Assembly (NCBI GenBank): GCA_009908385.1
Contig: JAAAPE010000089.1
Span: 1-32,800, forward strand
Length of the DNA: 32,800 bases
Source of the DNA: Gammaproteobacteria bacterium
GTDB lineage: Bacteria; Pseudomonadota; Gammaproteobacteria; Xanthomonadales; Wenzhouxiangellaceae
Direction: 5' to 3'
Shown: positions 4,708-27,991 of the stretch, in pieces
Numbering within the stretch: position 1 is the first letter of the stretch
How the letters are laid out: every line of letters begins with the position of its first letter
Notes under the pieces: generated by a model
What the model saw: only the letters and a program-made list of their open reading frames with translations
What the model was told of the DNA's origin: nothing
The model's database searches: none
Program-made: the position numbers and the translations under genes

Positions 4708-6159
4708 TCAGCCGCGCGCCTGCACCACGCGGTCGCGCCCGGCGCGCTTGGCTTCGAGCAGCATCGCGTCGGCGCGGTCGAAGGCCCGCGTGATCGAGTC
4801 GCCGGGCGAGAGCTCGATCACGCTGAAGGTTCCCGCCAGGCCGGCCTCCACGCCGGGAACGTGAATGTCGTGCAGCGCGCGGCGCAGCTCTTCGGCCCGC
4901 GCGACCGCACGGTCGCCGCTGCAGGCGGGCATCAGGAGCATGAATTCGTCGCCGCCGAAACGCCCGAAGAGGTCGTCGTGGCGCAGCCGGGCCGCGACGG
5001 TGTCGGCCACGCGGCGCAGCGCCTCGTCGCCGGCCGAATGGCCCAGGCGATCGTTGATCTGCTTGAATCGGTCGATGTCGAAGATCACCAGCGCGGCCCG
5101 GGCGTCGCGTCCGCGCAGCAGCAGGAGCTCCTCGCGGGAGCGCTCGAAGAAATGCCGGCGACTGGTCACGCCGGTCAGCTCGTCGGCCTCGGCGATCTGG
5201 CGCAGCCGGCGATTCTGTTCGACCAGGGTCGGCACGGCCAGGCCGAACCAGGTGCTCGCCGCGATCACGGTCAGCGCGAACTGGTAGACCATGGCCTGTT
5301 CGTCGAGCCCGAACAGCCCGACGCTGAGCGCGATCAGCACGCTGAGCGCCGCGAGCGAGACGGCCACCCGGAAGGCCGACTCCGTATAGGTGATCCACAT
5401 CTGCGGGATGATCAGGAAGAAGACCGCGAAGGCCAGCACCTCGTCCTGGTCGAACATCGCGGTCAGCGTCATGACCAGGCCGAGCAGGGCGAGCAGGACG
5501 ACCAGCTTCATCGCCCAGGGCCCGGCCGGCCGTGGCACCGCCCGCAGGTCGATGACCGGGAAGGCGCGGCGGGCCGGTGGCAGGCGATGGGCCAGCAGGC
5601 CGGCGAACAGCGGGGTGAGCGTCACCGCGGCGGCCATGTCGCCGACCCACCAGGGCAACCACAGGCCGGCGCTGTCGGTGCGCGGCAGCGAGCCGCCCAG
5701 GATCAGCGCCTCGATGCCGAGCCGGGCGGCCAGCAGGGCCGAGAGCGAGGCCACGACCAGGAAGGCGATCACCCGCGCGGGCAGCGACAGGGCCCGCCGC
5801 TGGCGCCCGATCCAGCCGAGCGCGGCCGCGCCGACCAGGTAGGCGCCACCGTGCGCGAGGGCGAAGAGCAACCCGGCGACGAGGGTGCCCCCGGTGGGCC
5901 TCGGCGCGCCGTAGACGACGTCCGCCCAGAAGGTCACGGCGACCGCGGCGGGCACCAGTACGATCGCGGCACGATAGCCAGTGACCAGGAAGGCGGCGAG
6001 CGTCAGGGCGGCCGGGGGAAACCAGATGCTCGCGTGCGGCGCGTATTCCATCAGCGCCGAAGCGCGCCACAGCGCCACCCAGGCGAGTGCCAGCAGGATC
6101 ATCCGCGGCAGCGAAAGTCTCGACTCGGCGCCGGGCCGTTCTTGCTGGATGGTCGACAT
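4708..6159 (-). CDS. Membrane diguanylate cyclase, MASE1-GGDEF
   Basis: A 483-residue protein. Residues about 20-310 are a multi-pass membrane region with MASE1 signatures: ASIWFPPAALTLAAF near 43-57, then FWADVVYG, and a GAYLVGAAALGW helix. A GGDEF domain begins near residue 327 (ELTGVTSRRHF) and carries an intact active site RFGGDEF at 400-406, preceded by FDIDRFKQINDRLGH. RHDD at 393-396, five residues before GGDEF, matches the RxxD inhibitory I-site, so product feedback is expected. The enzyme should make c-di-GMP from two GTP at the inner membrane. The MASE1 ligand is not known from sequence. It is divergent from pilU and upstream of the SDR gene, probably on the same transcript. Confidence 0.93.
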   Translation of the reverse strand: MSTIQQERPGAESRLSLPRMILLALAWVALWRASALMEYAPHASIWFPPAALTLAAFLVTGYRAAIVLVPAAVAVTFWADVVYGAPRPTGGTLVAGLLFALAHGGAYLVGAAALGWIGRQRRALSLPARVIAFLVVASLSALLAARLGIEALILGGSLPRTDSAGLWLPWWVGDMAAAVTLTPLFAGLLAHRLPPARRAFPVIDLRAVPRPAGPWAMKLVVLLALLGLVMTLTAMFDQDEVLAFAVFFLIIPQMWITYTESAFRVAVSLAALSVLIALSVGLFGLDEQAMVYQFALTVIAASTWFGLAVPTLVEQNRRLRQIAEADELTGVTSRRHFFERSREELLLLRGRDARAALVIFDIDRFKQINDRLGHSAGDEALRRVADTVAARLRHDDLFGRFGGDEFMLLMPACSGDRAVARAEELRRALHDIHVPGVEAGLAGTFSVIELSPGDSITRAFDRADAMLLEAKRAGRDRVVQARG

Positions 6160-6332: not shown

Positions 6333-7442
6333 ATGGAAATCGAGGCCTACCTGCGAGCCATGGTCAAGCACAACGCGTCCGACCTGTTCTTCAGCGCGGG
6401 CGCGCCGGCGGGCATCAAGATCCAGGGGGAGACGCGCCGCCTGGGCCAGGAGAACCTGTCCTCGCAGCAGGTGCGCAAGCTGGCCTATTCCCTGCTCAAC
6501 GACAAGCAGATCGCGACCTTCGAGGCCGAGATGGAGCTCAACCTGGCCATCGCGCTCGAGTCACTCGGCCGCTTCCGGGTCAACCTCTTCCGCCAGCGCG
6601 GTTCGGTGGCCATGGTGGTGCGCTACATCAAGAGCGAGATTCCCTCGATCGAGGACCTCGACCTGCCGCCGATCCTCAAGGACCTGATCATGGAGCCGCG
6701 CGGGCTGATCCTGGTCGTCGGCGCGACCGGCTCGGGCAAGTCGACCACGCTGGCCTCGATGATCGATCACCGCAACGAACGCCGCACCGGCCACATCCTC
6801 ACCATCGAGGAGCCGATCGAGTTCCTGCACAAGCACAAGAAGTCGATCGTCGACCAGCGCGAGCTGGGACTCGACACGCTCAGCTATGCCAACGCGCTCA
6901 AGAACGCCATGCGCGAAGCGCCCGACGTCATCCTGATCGGCGAGATCCGCGACCGCGAGACCATGAAGCACGCCATCAGCTATGCCGAAACCGGGCACCT
7001 CTGCCTGTCGACCCTGCACGCCAACAACGCCAACCAGACGCTCGATCGCATCATCAACTTCTTCCCGGAGTCGGCCCACCACCAGCTGTTCATCGACCTG
7101 TCGGAACACCTGCGCGCCATCGTCAGCCAGCGCCTGGTGCCGTCGAGCGACGGCAAACGCGTCCCGGCCGTGGAGGTTCTCATCCGCACGCCCTACGTGG
7201 CCGACCTGATTCTCAAGAACGACATCGACAGCATCAAGGAAGCGATGAAGGAAGGGGGGCAGGCGGGCATGCAGACCTTCGACCAGGCCCTGCTCAAGCT
7301 CTACCGGGAGAGCCGCATTTCCGAGGAGCAGGCGCTCGAGCACGCCGACTCGCGCAACGACCTCGGCCTGGCCATCCGCACTTCGCGCAACCGCAGCGCC
7401 GATGACGCACCGGAAGGCCTCAGCATTGACCAATTCGACTGA
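6333..7442 (+). CDS. pilU: Type IV pilus retraction ATPase PilU
   Basis: A 369-residue PilT/PilU-family hexameric ATPase that helps pull type IV pili back. Visible motifs are Walker A GATGSGKST at 130-138, the Asp box TIEEPIEF at 157-164, Walker B VILIGEIRD at 199-207 and the His box STLHANNA at 226-233. The N-terminus MEIEAYLRAMVKHNASDLFF and the C-terminal extension after the motor core (FDQALLKLYRESRIS, then an acidic tail) fit PilU better than PilT; PilT usually has AIRNLIREG-like sequence here. AAGGGG upstream of ATG 6333 is a ribosome site. The 3' end overlaps the next gene, a degenerate GGDEF-EAL protein. No pilT is visible in the window. Confidence 0.88.
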   Translation: MEIEAYLRAMVKHNASDLFFSAGAPAGIKIQGETRRLGQENLSSQQVRKLAYSLLNDKQIATFEAEMELNLAIALESLGRFRVNLFRQRGSVAMVVRYIKSEIPSIEDLDLPPILKDLIMEPRGLILVVGATGSGKSTTLASMIDHRNERRTGHILTIEEPIEFLHKHKKSIVDQRELGLDTLSYANALKNAMREAPDVILIGEIRDRETMKHAISYAETGHLCLSTLHANNANQTLDRIINFFPESAHHQLFIDLSEHLRAIVSQRLVPSSDGKRVPAVEVLIRTPYVADLILKNDIDSIKEAMKEGGQAGMQTFDQALLKLYRESRISEEQALEHADSRNDLGLAIRTSRNRSADDAPEGLSIDQFD

Positions 7443-8763
7443 GCAGGGCGATGGTCGCGATGCGGCCGACAAGATTCGCACCGCCCGGCTGGTCGATGCC
7501 CACGCCGGCACGCGGCGGGCCCGGCACAAGTTCCTGCGCTACGCCGAGTTCCGGTATCGTCAGTTCATCAAAGACCCGCGCCAGCATCCGCACGGGGTCG
7601 CCTGCATCCATCTCAACAACTGGCGCGAATGCCGCGACCACTTCGGTTTCGGCGGCCTGGAGACGATCAACGCCGAGATCGAGGCGCGCATGCTCGGCGC
7701 GCTGGTCGAACACGACATCTTCCTGCGCCTGGCCGACAGCAGCGTCGTCGGCGTGCTCTGGCCCGGGGAGGGTCATCGCGACATCGAGCGCTGGGCGGCC
7801 GGCATGCTCGACGCGCTCGGCGGTGCGGAATACCCGGTCGGCGCGCGCCGCGTGACGGCCACCTTCAGCATCGGCATGTGCTGGTTCGACCGGCGCGTGC
7901 GCGGCGCCGAAGAGGCCCTGCTCGATGCCATGCACCTGGCCGAACAACTCGCCGAAGAGGGCGAGAACCGCTATGGCCTGTTCCGGCCGGTGAAGGCGCC
8001 GCGGGCGGAACTCGGCAGCGAGACCCAGCTGGCGCGGCAGATTCGCCGCTCGCTGCAGTCCAACCGCCTGCGCATGGTGTTCCAGCCCCTGCTCGCTGCG
8101 GCCGCGGAGGGCGGGCGCTACTACCAGGTGTGGGCGCGGCTGATGACCGACTCGGGCAAGCTGGTGCCGGCCCGCCACTTTCTCGGCGTGGCCCGCCGCC
8201 ACGAGCTGATCGGCGGCCTGCAGCGCTGGACGCTGCGCCGCAGCGTGCATTACCTGACCACCGCCCACGGCAGCCCCTCGGCCGTTCGCCTGTTCGTCAA
8301 CGTCTCGCCCGAGGCGTTCAGCGAACCGATGTTCGAGTGGCTGGCGCGCATCCGCGAGCGTCACCCGGAGGTGGGCCCGCGCCTGATCGCGGAATTCGAG
8401 CTGTTCGACCTGGAAAACCGCGCCGGCGAGACCCGCGAAGTCATGCAGCGGCTGCACGAGCAGGGGGTGCGCATCGGGCTGAGCGGCATCGGCGAGAAGC
8501 ACCTCGGCCATCGCCTGCTCGACGAGGCCCCGGTCGACTACCTGCGCATGGCGCCCGGCTTCGCCGAGGTCCTGCACGACCGCGCCGGGCTGGTGGGCGA
8601 GTTCATGGCCTTCATCAGCCGCGCCCACCACGCCGACCGCGCCGTGGTCATGCCCGAGGTCGAGCGCGAGGAGCAGGTCATCGAGTTCTGGCAGGCGGGC
8701 GTCGATTTCATCCAGGGCGACTACATCGAACAGCCTCGGACCAGTCCGGAGCGGCTGGATTGA
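7426..8763 (+). CDS. Degenerate GGDEF-EAL protein, FimX-like c-di-GMP effector candidate
   Basis: Two-domain protein of about 445 residues (numbered from TTG 7426). The N-terminal half has a GGDEF fold whose active site is ADSSV (103-107) in place of GGDEF, so it cannot make c-di-GMP. The C-terminal half is an EAL domain. The FQPL start is kept (219-222), but the EAL glutamate region reads YQVWARL, with QVW at 234-236. The DDFG region reads SGIGEK, so phosphodiesterase activity should be lost. FimX, the pilus effector, has the same kind of changes (an EVL motif and a broken GGDEF), and RMVFQPLL with YQVWARL aligns naturally with FimX RLVYQP and YEVLLRL. It overlaps pilU by 17 bases from TTG 7426, which has GGAAGG eight bases upstream, or by 41 bases from ATG 7402. 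No response-regulator or PAS domain precedes it, unlike full FimX. Confidence 0.78.
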   Translation: MTNSTEQGDGRDAADKIRTARLVDAHAGTRRARHKFLRYAEFRYRQFIKDPRQHPHGVACIHLNNWRECRDHFGFGGLETINAEIEARMLGALVEHDIFLRLADSSVVGVLWPGEGHRDIERWAAGMLDALGGAEYPVGARRVTATFSIGMCWFDRRVRGAEEALLDAMHLAEQLAEEGENRYGLFRPVKAPRAELGSETQLARQIRRSLQSNRLRMVFQPLLAAAAEGGRYYQVWARLMTDSGKLVPARHFLGVARRHELIGGLQRWTLRRSVHYLTTAHGSPSAVRLFVNVSPEAFSEPMFEWLARIRERHPEVGPRLIAEFELFDLENRAGETREVMQRLHEQGVRIGLSGIGEKHLGHRLLDEAPVDYLRMAPGFAEVLHDRAGLVGEFMAFISRAHHADRAVVMPEVEREEQVIEFWQAGVDFIQGDYIEQPRTSPERLD

Positions 8764-15959: not shown

Positions 15960-16793
15960 TCATTCGGTGCTTCCGCGGGCCTGCCGGTGGAGCTGGTACG
16001 CCCCGGGGGTGAGATCGGATTCGGCGATCCCCAGTCGCCGGAGCCGTTCGGCGCTCAGTACGGGCGGCGCCCTGGGCGGCAGGTACAACGTCGAGGCCTG
16101 CGTGAAGCGCACCTCGTGGAGCCGCTCGAGCGGCACCTGCTCGATGCGCGCTTCGTCAAGCGGGAACACCGCCGCCTCGTAGACCGTCACCGGGTGGTCG
16201 CGGGGGTAGTCTTCGGCGAGCACCTCGGCGAGCACGCGCACCCAGCGCGGATCCGACTCGAAGGCGTCGCGACCGAGGTCGCCGAGCGTGATCGGCTGCC
16301 ACAGGATCAGCGCGGCGGTGGCATCGAAGCGGCGTTCGTGCAGCAGGAAGTCGGTCGCCTCGAAGCTCTGACATCCGTTCAGCGCCGGGTCGACGCCCAG
16401 GTCGGCGAACAGGCAGTCCTCGGCCGAGATGCCCGGGTACATGACCGCGCGGTAGCCGGCCGAGCGCGCCCGACGGACGGCTTCGTGGGCCGGCCAGACG
16501 AACACGCCGGGATGCCCGTAGAACGCGGCGCAGACATGCAGCCCCTCGGCCAGCGGCGCGAGGATTCGCCGCACCATCTCGGCGTAGCTGTCGTCGCGTC
16601 GGCGGCCCCGGGCGTAGCTGTCCTGCAGCGACTCGACACGGTCGTTGAGCTCGCGCAACCGCTCGAGCGTGAGGCCGTCGACCACGCAGAAGACGCGGTC
16701 GGCGGCCTGCAGCAGGTGCTGTGCTTCACGGCTGAGGTGACCGCCCGGGCGGATGCCGGTGCCGACGACGCTCAGCCGGCCGCCGGGCGCCAT
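15960..16793 (-). CDS. Split-borosin alpha-N-methyltransferase (tetrapyrrole methylase fold)
   Basis: A 277-residue SAM-dependent methyltransferase of the TP-methylase fold. The N-terminus has VVGTGIRPGGHLSREA (9-24), the SAM-site variant of borosin-type enzymes, rather than the VGAGPGD of cobalamin and siroheme methylases. FYGHPGVFVWPAHEAVR and YPGISAEDCLFADLGVDP are also characteristic of this branch. Y60 and R66-x3-Y70 match the spacing of the catalytic Tyr66/Arg72/Tyr76 set of OphMA. Borosin enzymes methylate backbone amide nitrogens of a peptide; here the peptide would be the 67-residue product encoded immediately upstream. Its ATG overlaps that gene's stop codon by one base (TGATG), so the two are translationally coupled. 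Length equals that of split enzymes such as SonM, with no fused peptide at the C-terminus. A corrin methylase is the alternative, but no cobalamin gene is nearby. Confidence 0.85.
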   Translation of the reverse strand: MAPGGRLSVVGTGIRPGGHLSREAQHLLQAADRVFCVVDGLTLERLRELNDRVESLQDSYARGRRRDDSYAEMVRRILAPLAEGLHVCAAFYGHPGVFVWPAHEAVRRARSAGYRAVMYPGISAEDCLFADLGVDPALNGCQSFEATDFLLHERRFDATAALILWQPITLGDLGRDAFESDPRWVRVLAEVLAEDYPRDHPVTVYEAAVFPLDEARIEQVPLERLHEVRFTQASTLYLPPRAPPVLSAERLRRLGIAESDLTPGAYQLHRQARGSTE

Positions 16794-16996
16794 CAGAGAA
16801 TGATGAGCTGCATCTTGTTGTCGTCGATACCCGCTTCCCTGGCCAGCGTTTCCTTGTCGCCCTCGCGCACCAGCTTCTGGTGGTCGTCGGGCACGCCGAA
16901 GGCGTTCATGACCGCCTCGGGGTCCTTCCGGTACCGTTCGAGCGTTTCGGGGTCTTCGGCGAGACTCGTGAGGAACTTGCGCGTGTTGTCGGACAT
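16793..16996 (-). CDS. Borosin-type RiPP precursor peptide (67 residues)
   Basis: A 67-residue protein starting at ATG 16996 with a strong AAGGA ribosome site. Residues 1-55 are charged and helical (MSDNTRKFLTSLAEDPETLE, then RYRKDPEAVMNAFGVPDDHQ). This resembles the small helical borosin-binding and Nif11-like leader domains; DPEAVM followed by FGVPDDH is the typical DPEAVMxxxGL pattern. After a short acidic linker (GIDDNK) the chain ends in MQLIIL, a hydrophobic, beta-branched tail expected for a methylated core. No Gly-Gly or other protease site precedes the core, and there is no follower sequence after it. It lies 46 bp downstream of the amine oxidase gene and overlaps the methyltransferase gene. 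The precursor role is inferred from fold pattern and context. A nitrogen-fixation Nif11 protein is unlikely because no nif gene is present. Confidence 0.78.
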   Translation of the reverse strand: MSDNTRKFLTSLAEDPETLERYRKDPEAVMNAFGVPDDHQKLVREGDKETLAREAGIDDNKMQLIIL

Positions 16997-17042
16997 GGTT
17001 TCCTTCCCTCGGTTGGTATGGCAGAAGTAGCCGGCGAGCCGA

Positions 17043-18557
17043 TCAGCCCGCCGGATCGAGCCAGTCGGGCGCCGCCAGGTCGAAGCAGCGCCGCAGCATG
17101 TCCTCGGCCGAGCGCAGCGCCCCCTCGCTCCAGCCCTGGGCCGTGCTGTAGCTTTCGCCGCAGACGTGCAGCGCCAGGCCGGGCACCGGCGCGCACATGG
17201 CGTCGGTGACCTCCCAGCTCTTCCAGCCCGGCATCCAGCTGTGCCAGCCGCCGCCGTAGGGCCACACGCTCCAGTCGATGAAGCGGCCCGCGGTCGGATG
17301 CGGCACGTCCACGCCGTGCATTTCCGACAGTTCACGGCGGATCTCGGTCAGCGCGAGGTCGCTGAGATCGCTCTCGAGCGCCGGGCCGCGGCCGCTGTCG
17401 GGCGTCAGCGCCCGCCAGAAGCTGACCGCTTCGGTATCGGCGTAGCTGGCCATCATCAAGGCCTGGCCGGAGCCTTCGTCGACGCCGAGGTAGTAGCACT
17501 GGCGCATGGGCAGGTCGGTGTGCGACACGCCGTAGGTGCCCGCGGCGATGCGCCCGGGTCCATCGGGAACGTTCCGCCACCAGGGCTCGTCGAAGCTCAG
17601 GAAGATCTTGCAGGCCGGCGCGCCCTCGACCGAGTCGACGCGGGCGGCGAGCCCGCCGTCCCGCAGGGCCGGGCTGGCCTCGATCAGGCGCACGATCGGC
17701 GCCCGCGGGATCGCGAGCACGAGCCGGTCGGATTCCCATTCCCGGTCGGCGCCGTCGGCCCGGACCGACAGGCGCAGCCGGTTGCCGGCCGGCTCGATGC
17801 GGCGCAGCACGTGACGGCGGTGGATGCTGGCAGCGGCCTTCTCCACGGCGGCGGCCAGGGCTTCGGGCAGGTGCTGGTAACCGTGGGTGAGCCGGTACCA
17901 CTTGCCGCTCTGCTCGACCACGATCGAGACCATGGCGTCGAAGGCGTTCCAGTTCGCGAGCAGGGCGTAGATGCCGGTCATGCCGCGCAGCGCCAGCCAC
18001 GCCTCGTGGCTGATCACGCGCGAGAGCAGGTTCCAGAAGCCCCAGCGCCACAGCGGCCGCCCGTCGAACTCGTGCTTCCTGAGGTAGTCGAGCGTGGCCT
18101 CGCGCGAGCCGTGCGGATCCTGCGGCCAGAGCTGCTTGATCTCCGGCGCGATGCGGGTGCAGGCCAGGTCGAGCAGCTGGTAGTAGCTCAGGCCGCGCTC
18201 GTCCGGCGCCAGCTTGTAGGGCTGGACCGACGGGTCCGAGAATCGATCGATCCTGAACCGCGTCGCGCGCAGCCAGGCGAAGTCCGGTTGCGGCTCGACC
18301 GTTTCGCGCGGCAGGTCGAAGACGCGGCTGCACAGGCCGTAGACCAGCGGTTGCTGATCGTTGAAAAACATGCCGCCGAGTTCGGCCGGCAAGCTGCTGT
18401 CGGGCTGCATCCGGAGCGACCAGAGCCGCCCGCCGATGCGGTCGGTGGCCTCGAGGATCGTCAGCCTGGATGGATCGTGGCCGGCCTGCAGGAGTCGCCA
18501 GGCGACATAAAGCCCGGAGACGCCGGCGCCGACCACGGTGATGTGTTCGTGTTTCAT
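17043..18557 (-). CDS. FAD-dependent amine oxidase-family protein in the borosin operon
   Basis: A 504-residue flavoprotein. The N-terminus has the dinucleotide-binding VVGAGVSGLYVAWRLL and the ILEATDRIGGRLWS block of the amine oxidase family. The C-terminus has the second FAD signature HVCGESYSTAQGWSEGALRS, as in monoamine and polyamine oxidases. There is no signal peptide, so it is cytoplasmic. The family oxidises amines or C-C/C-N bonds, making H2O2. The substrate is unknown; the genetic position suggests it acts on the methylated peptide or its product. Its ATG overlaps the stop codon of the upstream cyclase gene (ATGA), and the precursor gene follows after 46 bp. AGGAG lies just ahead of the ATG. 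Confidence 0.85.
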   Translation of the reverse strand: MKHEHITVVGAGVSGLYVAWRLLQAGHDPSRLTILEATDRIGGRLWSLRMQPDSSLPAELGGMFFNDQQPLVYGLCSRVFDLPRETVEPQPDFAWLRATRFRIDRFSDPSVQPYKLAPDERGLSYYQLLDLACTRIAPEIKQLWPQDPHGSREATLDYLRKHEFDGRPLWRWGFWNLLSRVISHEAWLALRGMTGIYALLANWNAFDAMVSIVVEQSGKWYRLTHGYQHLPEALAAAVEKAAASIHRRHVLRRIEPAGNRLRLSVRADGADREWESDRLVLAIPRAPIVRLIEASPALRDGGLAARVDSVEGAPACKIFLSFDEPWWRNVPDGPGRIAAGTYGVSHTDLPMRQCYYLGVDEGSGQALMMASYADTEAVSFWRALTPDSGRGPALESDLSDLALTEIRRELSEMHGVDVPHPTAGRFIDWSVWPYGGGWHSWMPGWKSWEVTDAMCAPVPGLALHVCGESYSTAQGWSEGALRSAEDMLRRCFDLAAPDWLDPAG

Positions 18558-20362
18558 GACTCCTGCCTGACCGGGACGCGGGACGGACCGTGCCGGAAAG
18601 GCGTGCCCTTGTCGGGGTCGAACAGCACGGCGCGGTTGCGGCCCGCCTGCTTGGCCTGGTAGAGCGCCTGGTCGGCCATGCGCAGGATGTCGCTGACGGC
18701 ACACTTCGGCGAAATGCTCGAGACCACACCGATGCTCGTGGTCACCGGCATGACCGCCTGCTCGAAGACGAAGGACTCGGCCGCCACCTCGTCGATGATG
18801 CGCCGGGCGACCTCCAGGCCGCTGTGGTCGGTCTGGTCGGACACGACGATCACGAACTCGTCACCGCCGAGGCGGCACATGACGTCGCCTTCGCGCAGCA
18901 CGCGCTGGCAGCGCCGCACGAGCTCGCGCAGCACCATGTCGCCGGCGGCGTGGCCGTACTCGTCGTTGGTGTCCTTGAAATTGTCGAGATCGAGGATCAG
19001 CACCGCCCGGTCGAAGGAATCCGCGTTGGGCCCCGGCATCACGCTCTCGAGATAGGTCTGGAGGAAGCGCCGGTTGTAGGCATCGGTCAGCGGATCGAGA
19101 TTGGCCAGCCGCGCCGCCTTGTGCTGTTCCTCGATGGCGCGCGCATGCCGCTCGTAGAGCTGGCGCACGCGCCAGGTCAGGCCCAGGGCCAGGATGCTGG
19201 CCTCGACCACTGCGCCGAGGTAGATCAGGTACTCGAAGAAATCCGTGCGCGGCAGCCAGTCGAGGGAAATGAACACGCGCGAGTAGCCGCTAATCACGAA
19301 CAGGGTCCAGGCCGCAAGGAAGATGACACCCTCGGTCGCCCCCCGGCGAGCCGCGATGATGGCGCCGGCGATCAGGGTCGCGTGCGCCACGAGCTGGATC
19401 GGCTGGGTGATCATCGCCACGACCAGCAGATAGCGCATCGGGATCAGCAGCGCGACCACCGCCAGCGCCGCCAGCAGCCAGACGAAGCCCTTGATGGCCA
19501 CGGTCAGGCGCGGGGCGTGTCGCTGGGGATTGACGAAGGCCAGGAAAAACAGCCCCATCGTCAGCAACATCATGACGTAGCAGACGAGGTAGATCCTGGA
19601 AACCTGTGGCAACAGGGCCTCGGGCAGGAAATGTGTCTGCAGCAGGCCCGAATCCACGCCCAGCAGCAGCAGCAGGCTTCCCATGGCCATCACGTAGTAG
19701 AGATGGCCGCGCTGGCGCAGGTTCAGGTAGAGCACGAAGTTGTGGAAGATCAGCGCCACCAGGATGCCGAACAGCAGGCCGAACACGAGGAAGGCCTGCG
19801 ACCTGGACTCGGTGAAGGTCGCCCGGTCCTCGACCCAGAGTTCCAGCGGCTGCAGGCTGTTCTGGACCGTGTCCACGCGAATCAGGAGCAGCTGGGTCTG
19901 GCCCGGCGGCACGCGGAAATCGACGACGTAGTGCCGGCCGACGGTCTGTGTCGTGACCGTCCGGTCGTAGGCCGCGCTGAACGAAGCCAGCCGCCCACCC
20001 TGCTGCGGCAAGTGAACCTGAAACTCTTCGAAAAAGCGACGGGCGACCCGAAGCACGTACTGCCCCTCGGCGTCCCGGGGCGCGGTGAAGCGGAACTTCA
20101 GCCACATCGGCGGCGCTTCGGACTCCAGCGCCTGCGAGTACGGCACGAAACCGGCATCGCTGCGGATCAGCGCGCGCGGATCGAGTGCGCCTTCGGGATC
20201 GGGTCGCACGGCCGCCGAGGACTTGATGTCGCCGACGGCGCCCTGGGCCGGCAGCTGGACGAGATCGGCGCGGTGCTGGGCCTGCAGCGGCAGCGCCACG
20301 GCCAGCAGCACGAGCACCAGCGACAGCCACGCGAAACGCCGCCCGTCACGGCCGCTCGTCAT
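18554..20362 (-). CDS. 7TM-DISM diguanylate cyclase, first gene of the borosin operon
   Basis: A 602-residue protein. A signal-like N-terminal segment (FAWLSLVLVLLAVALPLQAQ) is followed by a periplasmic 7TMR-DISM extracellular beta domain (to about 185, WLKFRFTAPRD..YVLRVARRF). Seven membrane helices follow (about 195-385), then a short coil (RQLYERHARAIEEQHKAARL) and a GGDEF domain from residue 421. The active site RLGGDEF (497-503) is intact, and REGD (490-493) is an RxxD inhibitory site. It should make c-di-GMP in response to an external ligand. Start at ATG 20362 is chosen because GGGGGAA precedes it and the signal segment follows. The stop codon overlaps the amine oxidase ATG by four bases, so it is translationally coupled to the RiPP genes. 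Confidence 0.92.
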   Translation of the reverse strand: MTSGRDGRRFAWLSLVLVLLAVALPLQAQHRADLVQLPAQGAVGDIKSSAAVRPDPEGALDPRALIRSDAGFVPYSQALESEAPPMWLKFRFTAPRDAEGQYVLRVARRFFEEFQVHLPQQGGRLASFSAAYDRTVTTQTVGRHYVVDFRVPPGQTQLLLIRVDTVQNSLQPLELWVEDRATFTESRSQAFLVFGLLFGILVALIFHNFVLYLNLRQRGHLYYVMAMGSLLLLLGVDSGLLQTHFLPEALLPQVSRIYLVCYVMMLLTMGLFFLAFVNPQRHAPRLTVAIKGFVWLLAALAVVALLIPMRYLLVVAMITQPIQLVAHATLIAGAIIAARRGATEGVIFLAAWTLFVISGYSRVFISLDWLPRTDFFEYLIYLGAVVEASILALGLTWRVRQLYERHARAIEEQHKAARLANLDPLTDAYNRRFLQTYLESVMPGPNADSFDRAVLILDLDNFKDTNDEYGHAAGDMVLRELVRRCQRVLREGDVMCRLGGDEFVIVVSDQTDHSGLEVARRIIDEVAAESFVFEQAVMPVTTSIGVVSSISPKCAVSDILRMADQALYQAKQAGRNRAVLFDPDKGTPFRHGPSRVPVRQES

Positions 20363-24995: not shown

Positions 24996-27449
24996 TCAAT
25001 CCATCGAGAAACGCTGGAGCCGGGCACGCACCGGATGATCGGCCAGGCCGAGATCGACGAAACGCCGGTCCGTTCGATCCAGGGCGGCACGGGCTTCCCC
25101 GTCGCGGCCGAGTTGCGCGAGGATGCGCGCCTCGAGCAATCGCCGGTCGGCGGTATGGACCAGCAGGCCGGGAGCTTCCTGCAGCGACAGGCTGCGTTCG
25201 ATGGCCCCCAGCGCGGCTTCGGGCCGCTCTGTAGCGAGTGCGCAAGCGGCGCGGGCCTCGAAAAGCTGAGCGGCCGTGCGCGGTTTGGCGGCCAGGCTGT
25301 CGGTGGTGGACAGGCCCTCGAGCAGCGATTCGCCCGCCTGTGCAGCGCCGCTACGGCAAAGCGCGCCGGCCAGGATCAGGTCTACCGAGTCGATCACGAG
25401 CCGGTCGAAACCGCCCTGCTCGCGCAACATGTCGCGGGCCTGGCGAATGTCGGCCACGGCGGCCTCGATCTCGCCCAGGCGGATCCGGAAGTAGCCCCTT
25501 TGGCTGTAGTACAGCGGCCATTGGCCGGGCTCGCGACCGGTCAGCAGGGCGTATTCTGCACCGTAGTCCGCCAGCGACTGGAATGCGGCGTCGACCTTGC
25601 CAATCGCCAGCAGCACACGCGCCAGCGACCGGTGCACGGCGGCTCGATAATCGACCGGCTCGGGGTAAATGTGATCGTAGAGTTCGATCGCGCGCCGGGC
25701 CCGCCGCTCGGCCTTTTCGAACTCTCCGCGCGTGCGTTCCAGGCCGACGCTGTTGGCCAGGCTGACGACGTAGCCCTGGCCTTGCTCGCCGGCCGGAAGC
25801 TGCCGAAAGGCCTGCAGCGACCAGTCCCGAAACTGTGCCGCCCGGTCGAGGTGGCCGTTGGCGTGATGCAGGCCGGCCAGGCTGTCGAACAGGCCGGCGC
25901 GGCTGGACGCGGCGACGTCGGCGCTCGGCGGCATGCTTCGCCACAACGACTGCACCAGGTCGAGCGCAAGGTCATGCCGCCCGCGGTGGCGCTCGACCCA
26001 GGTGCGCGTGACGCGGACCCGGATCAGCGCCTCCCAGGCTTGAGGCGCTTCGGCCAGCGCGGATTCGGCCTCGATCAGCACGCTTTCGGCATCGTCGAGG
26101 GGATCGCCTGCGGCGATCATCAGCCGGCCGCGCTGTTCCAGGGCCCGGGCGCGATCGACCGGCGAGAGCGCGTCGTGTTCGCGCGCCAGGTCGGCGGCGG
26201 CGGTGAGCAGCGGTTCGGCATCGTGGTAGCGCCCGCGGGCCCGATAGACGTCGCCGATGGTTCGAAGCATGTCGAGGCGTTCAGCCGGCGGCGCACTGTC
26301 AGGGTCCATGGCGCGTTCGGCGCCGCGATCGAGAATCTCGGCGGTGGTCGGTAGTTCGTCGCGCGGGCGATCGGGCCGCGTCGCGCCCAGCAGGTCGACG
26401 AGGAAATCGCCCAGCGCCTCGGCCCGCGCCAGCGCCGCCTCGGTGTCGGCCAACGCCGCTTCGGCGCGCGCGGCCTGGTTGCGGGCGCGGTCGCGCTCGA
26501 GCGCGAGCTGCCAGGTCATCCAGGCGCCGCCGCCGACAATCACCACCAGCGCCAGGACGGTGACCGCCGACAGCGCGCGGTTGCGCTTCACGAGCCGCGA
26601 AAGACGGTAGATCAAGCCGCCATTGCGCGCGGCCACCGGCCGGGCCGCCAGCCAGGCTTCGATATCGGCGGCCATCGCCGAAGCCGAGGCGTAACGTTCT
26701 TCCGGGGCGTCCCGGGTGGCCCGCTGGATGATGGCATCCGTATCGGGGGCGGGGGCTTCGGTGTCGAGCAGGTCTTCGAGCAAGCGCCCGAGCTGCCAGA
26801 TATCCGATGCGGTGGTGAGTTCGGCGCCCTCGCGCTGTTCGGGGCTGGCGTAGTCGGGCGTCATGCCGTAGCTGCTGCCGGGACCGGCCCGGCGCAGGCG
26901 CGAGATGCCGAAGTCGACCAGGCGCGGCCGGCCGCTGTCGTCGACCAGGACATTGGACGGCTTGATGTCGCCGTGAATCAGCCCCCGCCGATGCGCATGA
27001 TGCACCGCCCAACACAGCGTACCCACCAGCTGTGCTCGCGCCCTCCGGTCGAGATGGGCGGCGGCACGATCGATCGTTTCCCCGGGCACCAGGTCCATGG
27101 CGAACCAGCGCATGCCGTCGTCGGTCTCGCCGCCGTCGATCAGCCGGGCGATGTTGGGGTGGTCGAGGCTGGCAAGCAGTTCACGTTCGCGCGCCAGCAC
27201 TTCGCGGCCGCCGGGCACGGGCCGGTCGCTGCGCAGCCATTTCAGGGCCACCTGCTGGTCGTAGGCGCCGTCGGCGCGCTCGGCCAGGAACACGACACCA
27301 CTGCCGCCGCGCCCGAGTTCGCGCACGATGCGCCAGGCGCCGATGCGCTCATCGATTTCCGGCTCGCGCGCTTCGCTGAGGCGGTCGAGGAAGCGCCGGA
27401 ACAACGGTCCTTCCAGCGCGCCGCCGGGCTTGAGGGGATCGTCGCTCAC
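24996..27449 (-). CDS. Hanks-type Ser/Thr protein kinase with TPR-rich extracytoplasmic part
   Basis: An 817-residue protein (from GTG 27449). The kinase domain covers residues 40-280. It has the G-loop GRGGSGVV (46-53), ATP Lys70, catalytic HGDIKPSN (159-166, HGD instead of HRD), DFG (179-181), activation segment [12 protein letters not shown] and [10 protein letters not shown] single transmembrane helix (294-313, [20 protein letters not shown]) is followed by tetratricopeptide-like helical repeats to the end, likely outside the cytoplasm. The start is GTG 27449, which overlaps the sigma gene's stop codon (GTGA); ATG 27473 would add eight residues. Position and overlap say it controls, or is controlled with, the ECF sigma factor by phosphorylation, as known for other ECF/kinase pairs. 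Confidence 0.9.
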
Positions 27450-27991
27450 GACTGCAGCCTTGCCGCGAGCCATTCACGGGCTCGCCGCCAGTCACGCTGG
27501 ACGGATCTCAGGGAGCGGCCGGTCGCCTCGGCGGTTTCCTCTGCGGTCAGGCCGGCGAAGAACCGGCATTCGACTATGCGCGCCCTCGGCCCATCGAGCT
27601 CGGCAAGCCGTTCGAGCGCCTGGTCGACGGAAAGCAGGTGCTCCGCCTCGCGGGTTTCGACCAGGTCGTCGTCGCGCAGCTCGTAATGGACCGCGCCACC
27701 ACCGCGTTTTTCCGCGAGCCGCTCGCGCGCGAAGTCGCACAGCAACTGCCGCATGATGCGGGCCGAGAGATTGAAGAAGTGCGCCCGGTCATTGACCGCC
27801 AGTGCGCCACTGTCGAGAAAGCGCAGGTAGCACTCGTGCACGAGCGAGGTGGTGTCCAGCGCCTCGGAACCGCGGCGGCAGCGATGCGCGAGCTGTTTGA
27901 GATCGACGTAGAGCAGGGCCACCAGCCGGTTGAGCGCCGGCTGGTCGCCTTCGCTGGCCGCGTGGAGAAGTTGCGTCAGTTCACCGGGCAT
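27446..27991 (-). CDS. ECF-type sigma factor (kinase-linked group)
   Basis: A 181-residue sigma factor. Region 2 spans about residues 18-95 ([18 protein letters not shown], with [14 protein letters not shown] and [20 protein letters not shown]). Region 4 spans about 115-178 ([20 protein letters not shown], then [20 protein letters not shown] and [16 protein letters not shown] with the helix-turn-helix). It has no anti-sigma gene next to it; a Ser/Thr kinase gene overlaps by four bases instead. In the ECF43 group, kinase phosphorylation of the sigma factor activates it; membership here is an inference. Target genes may include the downstream run of cupin, GFA, mddA and beta-helix genes. Confidence 0.9.

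Follow-up and report, generated by a model that had tools for sequence, protein, structure and literature searches.

Why should an operon that appears to make a backbone-methylated peptide open with a gene for a signalling enzyme? The question is raised by a stretch of 32,800 nucleotides (contig JAAAPE010000089.1 of the gammaproteobacterial assembly GCA_009908385.1; the whole stretch is hereafter the window). Four of its minus-strand genes encode, in this order, a 7TMR-DISM diguanylate cyclase (DGC), an oxidase (AO) that uses flavin adenine dinucleotide (FAD), a borosin precursor peptide (PRE) and a peptide methyltransferase (MT), with DGC first in the operon (Table 1). The nearest named records to the operon are from Wenzhouxiangella. 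The identities of its four components are near certain, and across the loci collected here nothing accompanies MT and PRE more often than a signalling protein. My answer, a tentative one held at somewhat less than even confidence, is that this is a split borosin operon equipped with its own signal receptor.

The four genes and their surroundings

The first-pass annotation described four minus-strand genes joined by overlaps or tiny gaps, and every junction is as it was described: DGC and AO overlap in ATGA, AO and PRE are 46 bp apart, and PRE and MT share one base in TGATG.

Table 1. The four genes of the operon, in order on the minus strand of the window
Gene	Product	Length (aa)	Coordinates	Strand	Evidence
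DGC	7TMR-DISM diguanylate cyclase	602	20362-18554	minus	Open reading frame, Pfam
AO	L-amino-acid-oxidase-type FAD enzyme	504	18557-17043	minus	Open reading frame, Pfam
PRE	Borosin precursor	67	16996-16793	minus	Open reading frame, SonA similarity
MT	SonM-type peptide backbone alpha-N-methyltransferase	277	16793-15960	minus	Open reading frame, Pfam, SonM match

MT matches Pfam TP_methylase (3.6e-21), SonM (E 1.8e-51) and OphMA-type enzymes (about 1e-48), and the nearest other TP-methylase, RsmI, reaches an E of only 0.5. These values rule out a different TP-methylase and bear out the kinship to SonM and OphMA first proposed. In the alignment to SonM, Y58, R67, Y71, Y93 and F99 correspond to Y60, R66, Y70, Y92 and F98 of MT; the active-site residues Y58, R67, Y71 and Y93, whose catalytic roles are described in PMC8429565, are all kept, and the side-clamp loop of MT is 3 residues shorter than that of SonM.

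PRE ends in KMQLIIL, a hydrophobic core that follows a predicted helical borosin binding domain (BBD). Because family searches gave only sub-threshold matches (Pfam LigA, 5.7e-05; NCBIfam IniB_NTERM, 1.5e-05), its identity rests on similarity to SonA (E 1.9e-07). An AlphaFold model built from 20 sequences contains five helices and a short sixth (mean predicted local distance difference test score, pLDDT, 75.4), and SonA chains account for 15 of its 20 matches in the PDB, with probabilities of 0.93-1.00 and template-modelling scores to the target of up to 0.87; the E-values of these structure matches are weak (0.14-0.62) because the chain is short. From this model the PRE leader is predicted to have the SonA fold. 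MT and precursor are thus separate genes, while BBD, as the leader, and core lie in one protein, the arrangement of a split borosin that the first-pass annotation had recognized. By alignment to the methylated Leu63 and Ile65 of SonA, Leu64 and Ile66 are the predicted methylation sites, and I infer that these two residues near the C-terminus of PRE are where MT would methylate the backbone.

AO belongs to Pfam Amino_oxidase (5.8e-39), and its N-terminus begins directly with the FAD-binding motif. Its closest solved structures are annotated as L-amino-acid oxidases (PDB 8jhe, E 4.8e-70). A structure model of AO was discarded as too poor (pLDDT 53.1). DGC combines DISMED2 (3.7e-11), 7TMR-DISM_7TM (9.7e-27) and GGDEF (1.9e-41) domains, and its stretch REGDVMCRLGGDEF holds both the I-site (REGD) and the intact catalytic motif (RLGGDEF).

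Downstream of the operon lies a phospholipase-D-like gene, and upstream a divergent gene for a pyridoxal-phosphate enzyme, presumably cysM-like. Scans for promoters and terminators did not rise above chance expectation, and an Rfam scan of the window returned one tRNA as its sole match and no riboswitch for cyclic di-GMP (c-di-GMP). The window also encodes a MASE1-GGDEF protein (4708-6159, minus strand) and an EAL protein (7402-8763, plus strand), about 7-12 kb from the operon. A Ser/Thr kinase with a MalT-like tetratricopeptide repeat (TPR) region stands at 24996-27473 (minus strand) with no MT adjoining; the same pairing of kinase and TPR recurs beside the borosin of the acidobacterial locus L061.

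Signalling partners across borosin loci

Of the 151 relatives, 71 have an MT match (E 0.001); at E 1e-20, matches were found in 10 of 369 genomes across the class and in 15 of 398 across the phylum, both counts including the window's genome. The locus set comprises the window and 93 loci fetched by the relatives and class searches, with 12 more from the phylum search; many share a genome or stem from related species, so they are not independent events. Within the window's order, a same-strand GGDEF protein lies within 4.5 kb of MT in 81 of 86 loci. In nine of these loci the partner is a DISM-GGDEF protein and in 72 a TPR-GGDEF protein, which in 3 is fused to MT and in 3 is accompanied by a further GGDEF protein of another kind. 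Five loci of the order lack a partner: L115, L132 and three that a contig end truncates on one side (L078, L125 and L127). Outside the order, 13 of 20 loci have a partner: TPR-GGDEF in 8, a TPR histidine kinase in 3, both in 1 and a GGDEF protein of another kind in 1. The TPR label derives from a profile that was itself made from sensors of this order; an independent Pfam check of the sensor regions found TPR_12 in 44 of 91 and DISM in 9 of 91. Over the 94 loci of the relatives and class searches, the DNA up to 4 kb from MT (728 kb in all) holds 92 GGDEF domains on the same strand and 1 on the opposite strand, against 16 and 5 beyond that distance (712 kb). A cyclase beside a borosin, taken at first to be unprecedented, is therefore the rule in this order, and what remains peculiar here is the 7TMR-DISM sensor together with AO.

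The partner varies in its place and form. In layout B, DGC sits between PRE and MT. A single open reading frame joins a TPR-profile sensor, GGDEF and MT in L108 (6198-8768, with Pfam support), L128 (6174-8762) and L136 (6234-8771), and some loci hold 2-5 GGDEF genes on the same strand. One of them, L099, has one MT amid five such genes. The window's own genome has a second borosin locus (L079, contig C19, 4005-8774), which reads TPR-GGDEF, PRE, TPR-GGDEF, MT. The TPR sensor is also found on hybrid histidine kinases, by Pfam in L148 and by profile in L147, L190 and L192; since GGDEF proteins and hybrid kinases alike match one TPR profile, it is the input, not c-di-GMP, that is constant in that clade. 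In L061, a metagenome-assembled genome (MAG) of Acidobacteria, a Ser/Thr kinase-TPR protein stands just before PRE, and in L056 (1085-4739; a MAG labelled Methanomassiliicoccus) a STAND-TPR protein does. Among 18 cyanobacterial loci, TPR proteins occur by MT in 16 and a same-strand kinase or STAND protein in 16; this neighbour search was seeded from L039, L056 and L061, and the Pfam check covered the TPR proteins of L039 only. In most TPR-GGDEF partners the GGDEF domain is preceded, at a distance of about 30 residues, by a hydrophobic stretch, and many have another such stretch about 410 residues ahead of the domain. Thus the TPR part should, on hydropathy only, face the periplasm, as should DISMED2.

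The complete quartet of DGC, AO, PRE and MT occurs in 9 of the 94 MT loci, namely the window and eight others of its family (L062-L069), so the four genes do travel together outside this genome, as had been anticipated. L034-L038 lie on contigs of five quartet genomes, one of which is the named isolate Wenzhouxiangella sediminis XDB06 (L035). In the most distant quartet locus, identities are 49% for MT, 42-45% for AO, 42% for PRE and 34% for the DGC sensor. Gene order is preserved throughout, whereas the exact overlaps are confined to close relatives and give way to small gaps in distant ones. Against five orthologues, ratios of nonsynonymous to synonymous substitution rates (dN/dS) are 0.14-0.23 for MT, 0.10-0.37 for PRE (the lowest with saturated dS), 0.17-0.37 for AO and 0.21-0.45 for DGC. 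Several of nine window flank proteins match at L062, L063 (on one side; contig end) and L064; at L065-L069, where the quartet is intact, none of the nine does (L065 is cut just upstream of DGC).

Ten of the 151 relatives have AO at E 1e-30 or better: the nine quartet genomes, plus G022, in which the contig stops at DGC-AO. Fourteen have the DISM sensor at E 1e-60 or better, namely these ten, G012, G016, and G008 and G009, whose sensors are fragments at the edge of a contig. A fragment of a window-type MT lies at a different contig edge in G009 (L078). G012 and G016 each encode a DISM-DGC that shares 89-90% identity with its L065 counterpart; the genes on the MT side are the same, AO, PRE and MT are missing there, and a search found no AO in either genome (completeness 84 and 90%). 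As the DGC tree nests these two cyclases with that of L065 (100/100), the AO-PRE-MT block has been lost, probably twice. The retained DGC has dN/dS of 0.12-0.15, and both genomes still hold a TPR-type borosin locus (L121, L146).

Are all these cyclase pairings one inheritance? In an MT tree of 67 rows, hand-picked to spread over the layouts, the 9 quartet MTs form one clade (100/100) and sit among cyanobacterial, archaeal, acidobacterial and other MTs (22 rows, 97/92), while the other branch holds 45 rows with all the TPR-GGDEF and TPR-histidine kinase types used (97/92). The best match of SonM among the 67 rows is L187 (77%), whose locus reads MT-PRE-TPR-GGDEF. On this tree the approximately unbiased (AU) test rejects a single clade for the DGC-paired MTs taken together (p 0.0165); it does not distinguish two separate gains of the pairing from an old pairing that was later swapped. 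The best GGDEF tree places the DISM type apart from the TPR-GGDEF clade, with the own genome's unlinked GGDEF domains between them. For these domains a single clade is not rejected by the AU test (p 0.218), and the claim of separate pairings therefore rests on the MT tree. The GGDEF domain of the window's MASE1 protein sits on a long branch within the TPR-GGDEF clade.

PRE-like leaders are present in 90 of 122 loci, duplicates included. Over the window and L062-L154, four hydrophobic residues close the precursor in 9 of 9 DISM-type loci and in 0 of 58 others with a detected precursor, and none of the 7 precursors found in L185-L196 has such an end. Layout B precursors frequently end like SNSTIKAYD, those of layout C mostly have acidic tails, and cyanobacterial ones (L039-L057) finish with PDPDP-type repeats, which do not resemble a hydrophobic borosin core. 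Hydrophobic stretches also occur in TPR-type loci near SonM (L187, L193, L194, L075, L185), there a few residues short of the precursor end, which weakens the idea that core class follows sensor class. Two further architectures were seen: L058 (about 7720-8479, a Burkholderiales MAG) joins a BBD-like leader and MT in one open frame to the contig end, and L196 has an MT domain within an open frame of 1177 residues.

Does the peptide act on the cyclase?

MT would methylate the PRE core at Leu64 and Ile66, the core would be cleaved off and exported from the cytoplasm, and the oxidase AO may take either the liberated peptide or a released amino acid as its substrate. On the periplasmic side, the mature peptide would bind the DISM sensor of DGC and change c-di-GMP, and the cell or its neighbours would switch lifestyle; in relatives, TPR sensors joined to GGDEF or to a histidine kinase would do the same job. 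This direction, with the N-methylated peptide as ligand and the operon's own DGC as its receptor, is one I infer, and I put its chance slightly below even. The first-pass annotation proposed c-di-GMP-linked control of peptide production, which is one of two directions; the variety of output domains and the loss of AO, PRE and MT with DGC kept favour the reverse, a peptide acting on the receptor. Taken together, a frequent partner, varied sensors and outputs, DGC-paired MTs that are not one clade, and a DGC that outlives the peptide genes make the ligand reading the simplest. By extension, though here I am more doubtful, split borosins as a whole may be largely a form of peptide signalling, in which the methylated peptide is sensed by an adjacent TPR or 7TMR-DISM receptor. 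The outputs would then be c-di-GMP, phosphorelay or protein kinase, with the window as the form with DISM receptor and oxidase, a generalization I regard as rather doubtful too.

Several observations weigh against a peptide ligand. No exporter or peptidase gene was seen within the operon, and a signal peptide is not evident in PRE. For DISMED2 the predicted ligands are carbohydrates (PMC8846402), and lower-identity DISM sensors occur in 38 more genomes (52 of 151 at E 1e-6), including genomes without the operon. The DGC kept after the loss of AO-PRE-MT may have another job. Seven of the 20 loci outside the order have no signalling partner, and within it L115 and L132 have an MT and a BBD-like precursor with no GGDEF or TPR-histidine kinase partner within 4.5 kb. 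The three fusions of GGDEF to MT also fit control of the enzyme. Finally, the hydrophobic stretches in TPR-type loci near SonM mean that cores and sensors are not cleanly separable, and since the DISM type is one clade, its match of core and sensor is a single event.

The main rival, which I consider unlikely, puts DGC upstream: its sensor and local c-di-GMP would set the amount, methylation or release of the peptide. DGC does head the operon, and the TPR-GGDEF and MT of three loci share one open frame. GGDEF enzymes act as dimers, which also counts for this rival, as does the description of SonM as working as a dimer (PMC8429565). Against it, a kinase or STAND protein replaces GGDEF in the partners of other lineages, and two genomes keep DGC without AO, PRE and MT. 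More unlikely still is an ordinary natural product, for example a metal-binding or antibacterial one, with a signalling protein that only co-regulates it with biofilm life and makes no contact with it. Operon structure alone would explain the co-expression, and the EAL and MASE1-GGDEF genes are also in the window; yet no further gene was seen travelling with the quartet at L065-L069, judged by the nine flank proteins, and the partner, where present, varies in sensor and output and remains a signalling protein. Chance neighbourhood in DGC-rich genomes, for which the abundance of GGDEF genes might speak (31 matches in the 2.94 Mb of the own genome; genes in 147 of 151 relatives), is refuted by the 92 to 1 strand count near MT and by gene order kept at 34-49% identity.

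Comparison with known systems

If the peptide is indeed a ligand, the operon would encode a peptide autoinducer that feeds c-di-GMP. A frequent partner with varying sensor and output makes the purpose of borosins testable, as a methylated peptide that alters the activity of the adjoining receptor, and the presence of the quartet in W. sediminis XDB06 makes a receptor test feasible. How much of this is new? I found no paper linking borosins to a diguanylate cyclase or to tetratricopeptides, and an earlier account of TPR/GGDEF partners may exist. The published scheme of borosin types, in which split borosins are class 3, names a "GGDEF-sequence-containing domain" in its Fig. 1 legend (PMC11395268) and, like the operon here, places GGDEF in a borosin architecture. 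Novelty is therefore limited, the link being partly in print; that legend does not mention a DISM sensor or an AO, and the form of the operon with DISM-DGC and AO looks new.

The closest described system is the split (type IV) borosin SonM/SonA of Shewanella oneidensis (PMC8429565; PDB 7ltc), which likewise has a separate MT and BBD precursor. The likeness extends to near-full-length homology, the kept catalytic residues and a hydrophobic core. The window MT differs in lying in the other branch of the tree and in an operon with DISM-DGC and AO. AO resembles L-amino-acid oxidases (PDB 8jhe, 7eii) over most of its length; unlike them, at E 1e-30 it is found in the 151 relatives only next to a DISM-type borosin. 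A functional parallel is offered by RRNPP quorum sensing of Gram-positives, whose receptors are TPR proteins, like many of the partners in relatives. There, too, peptide and receptor genes are adjacent (PMC10075063). RRNPP receptors are intracellular, whereas those proposed here are membrane diguanylate cyclases or kinases, of the DISM rather than the TPR type in the window, and the peptide that they sense would be backbone-methylated.

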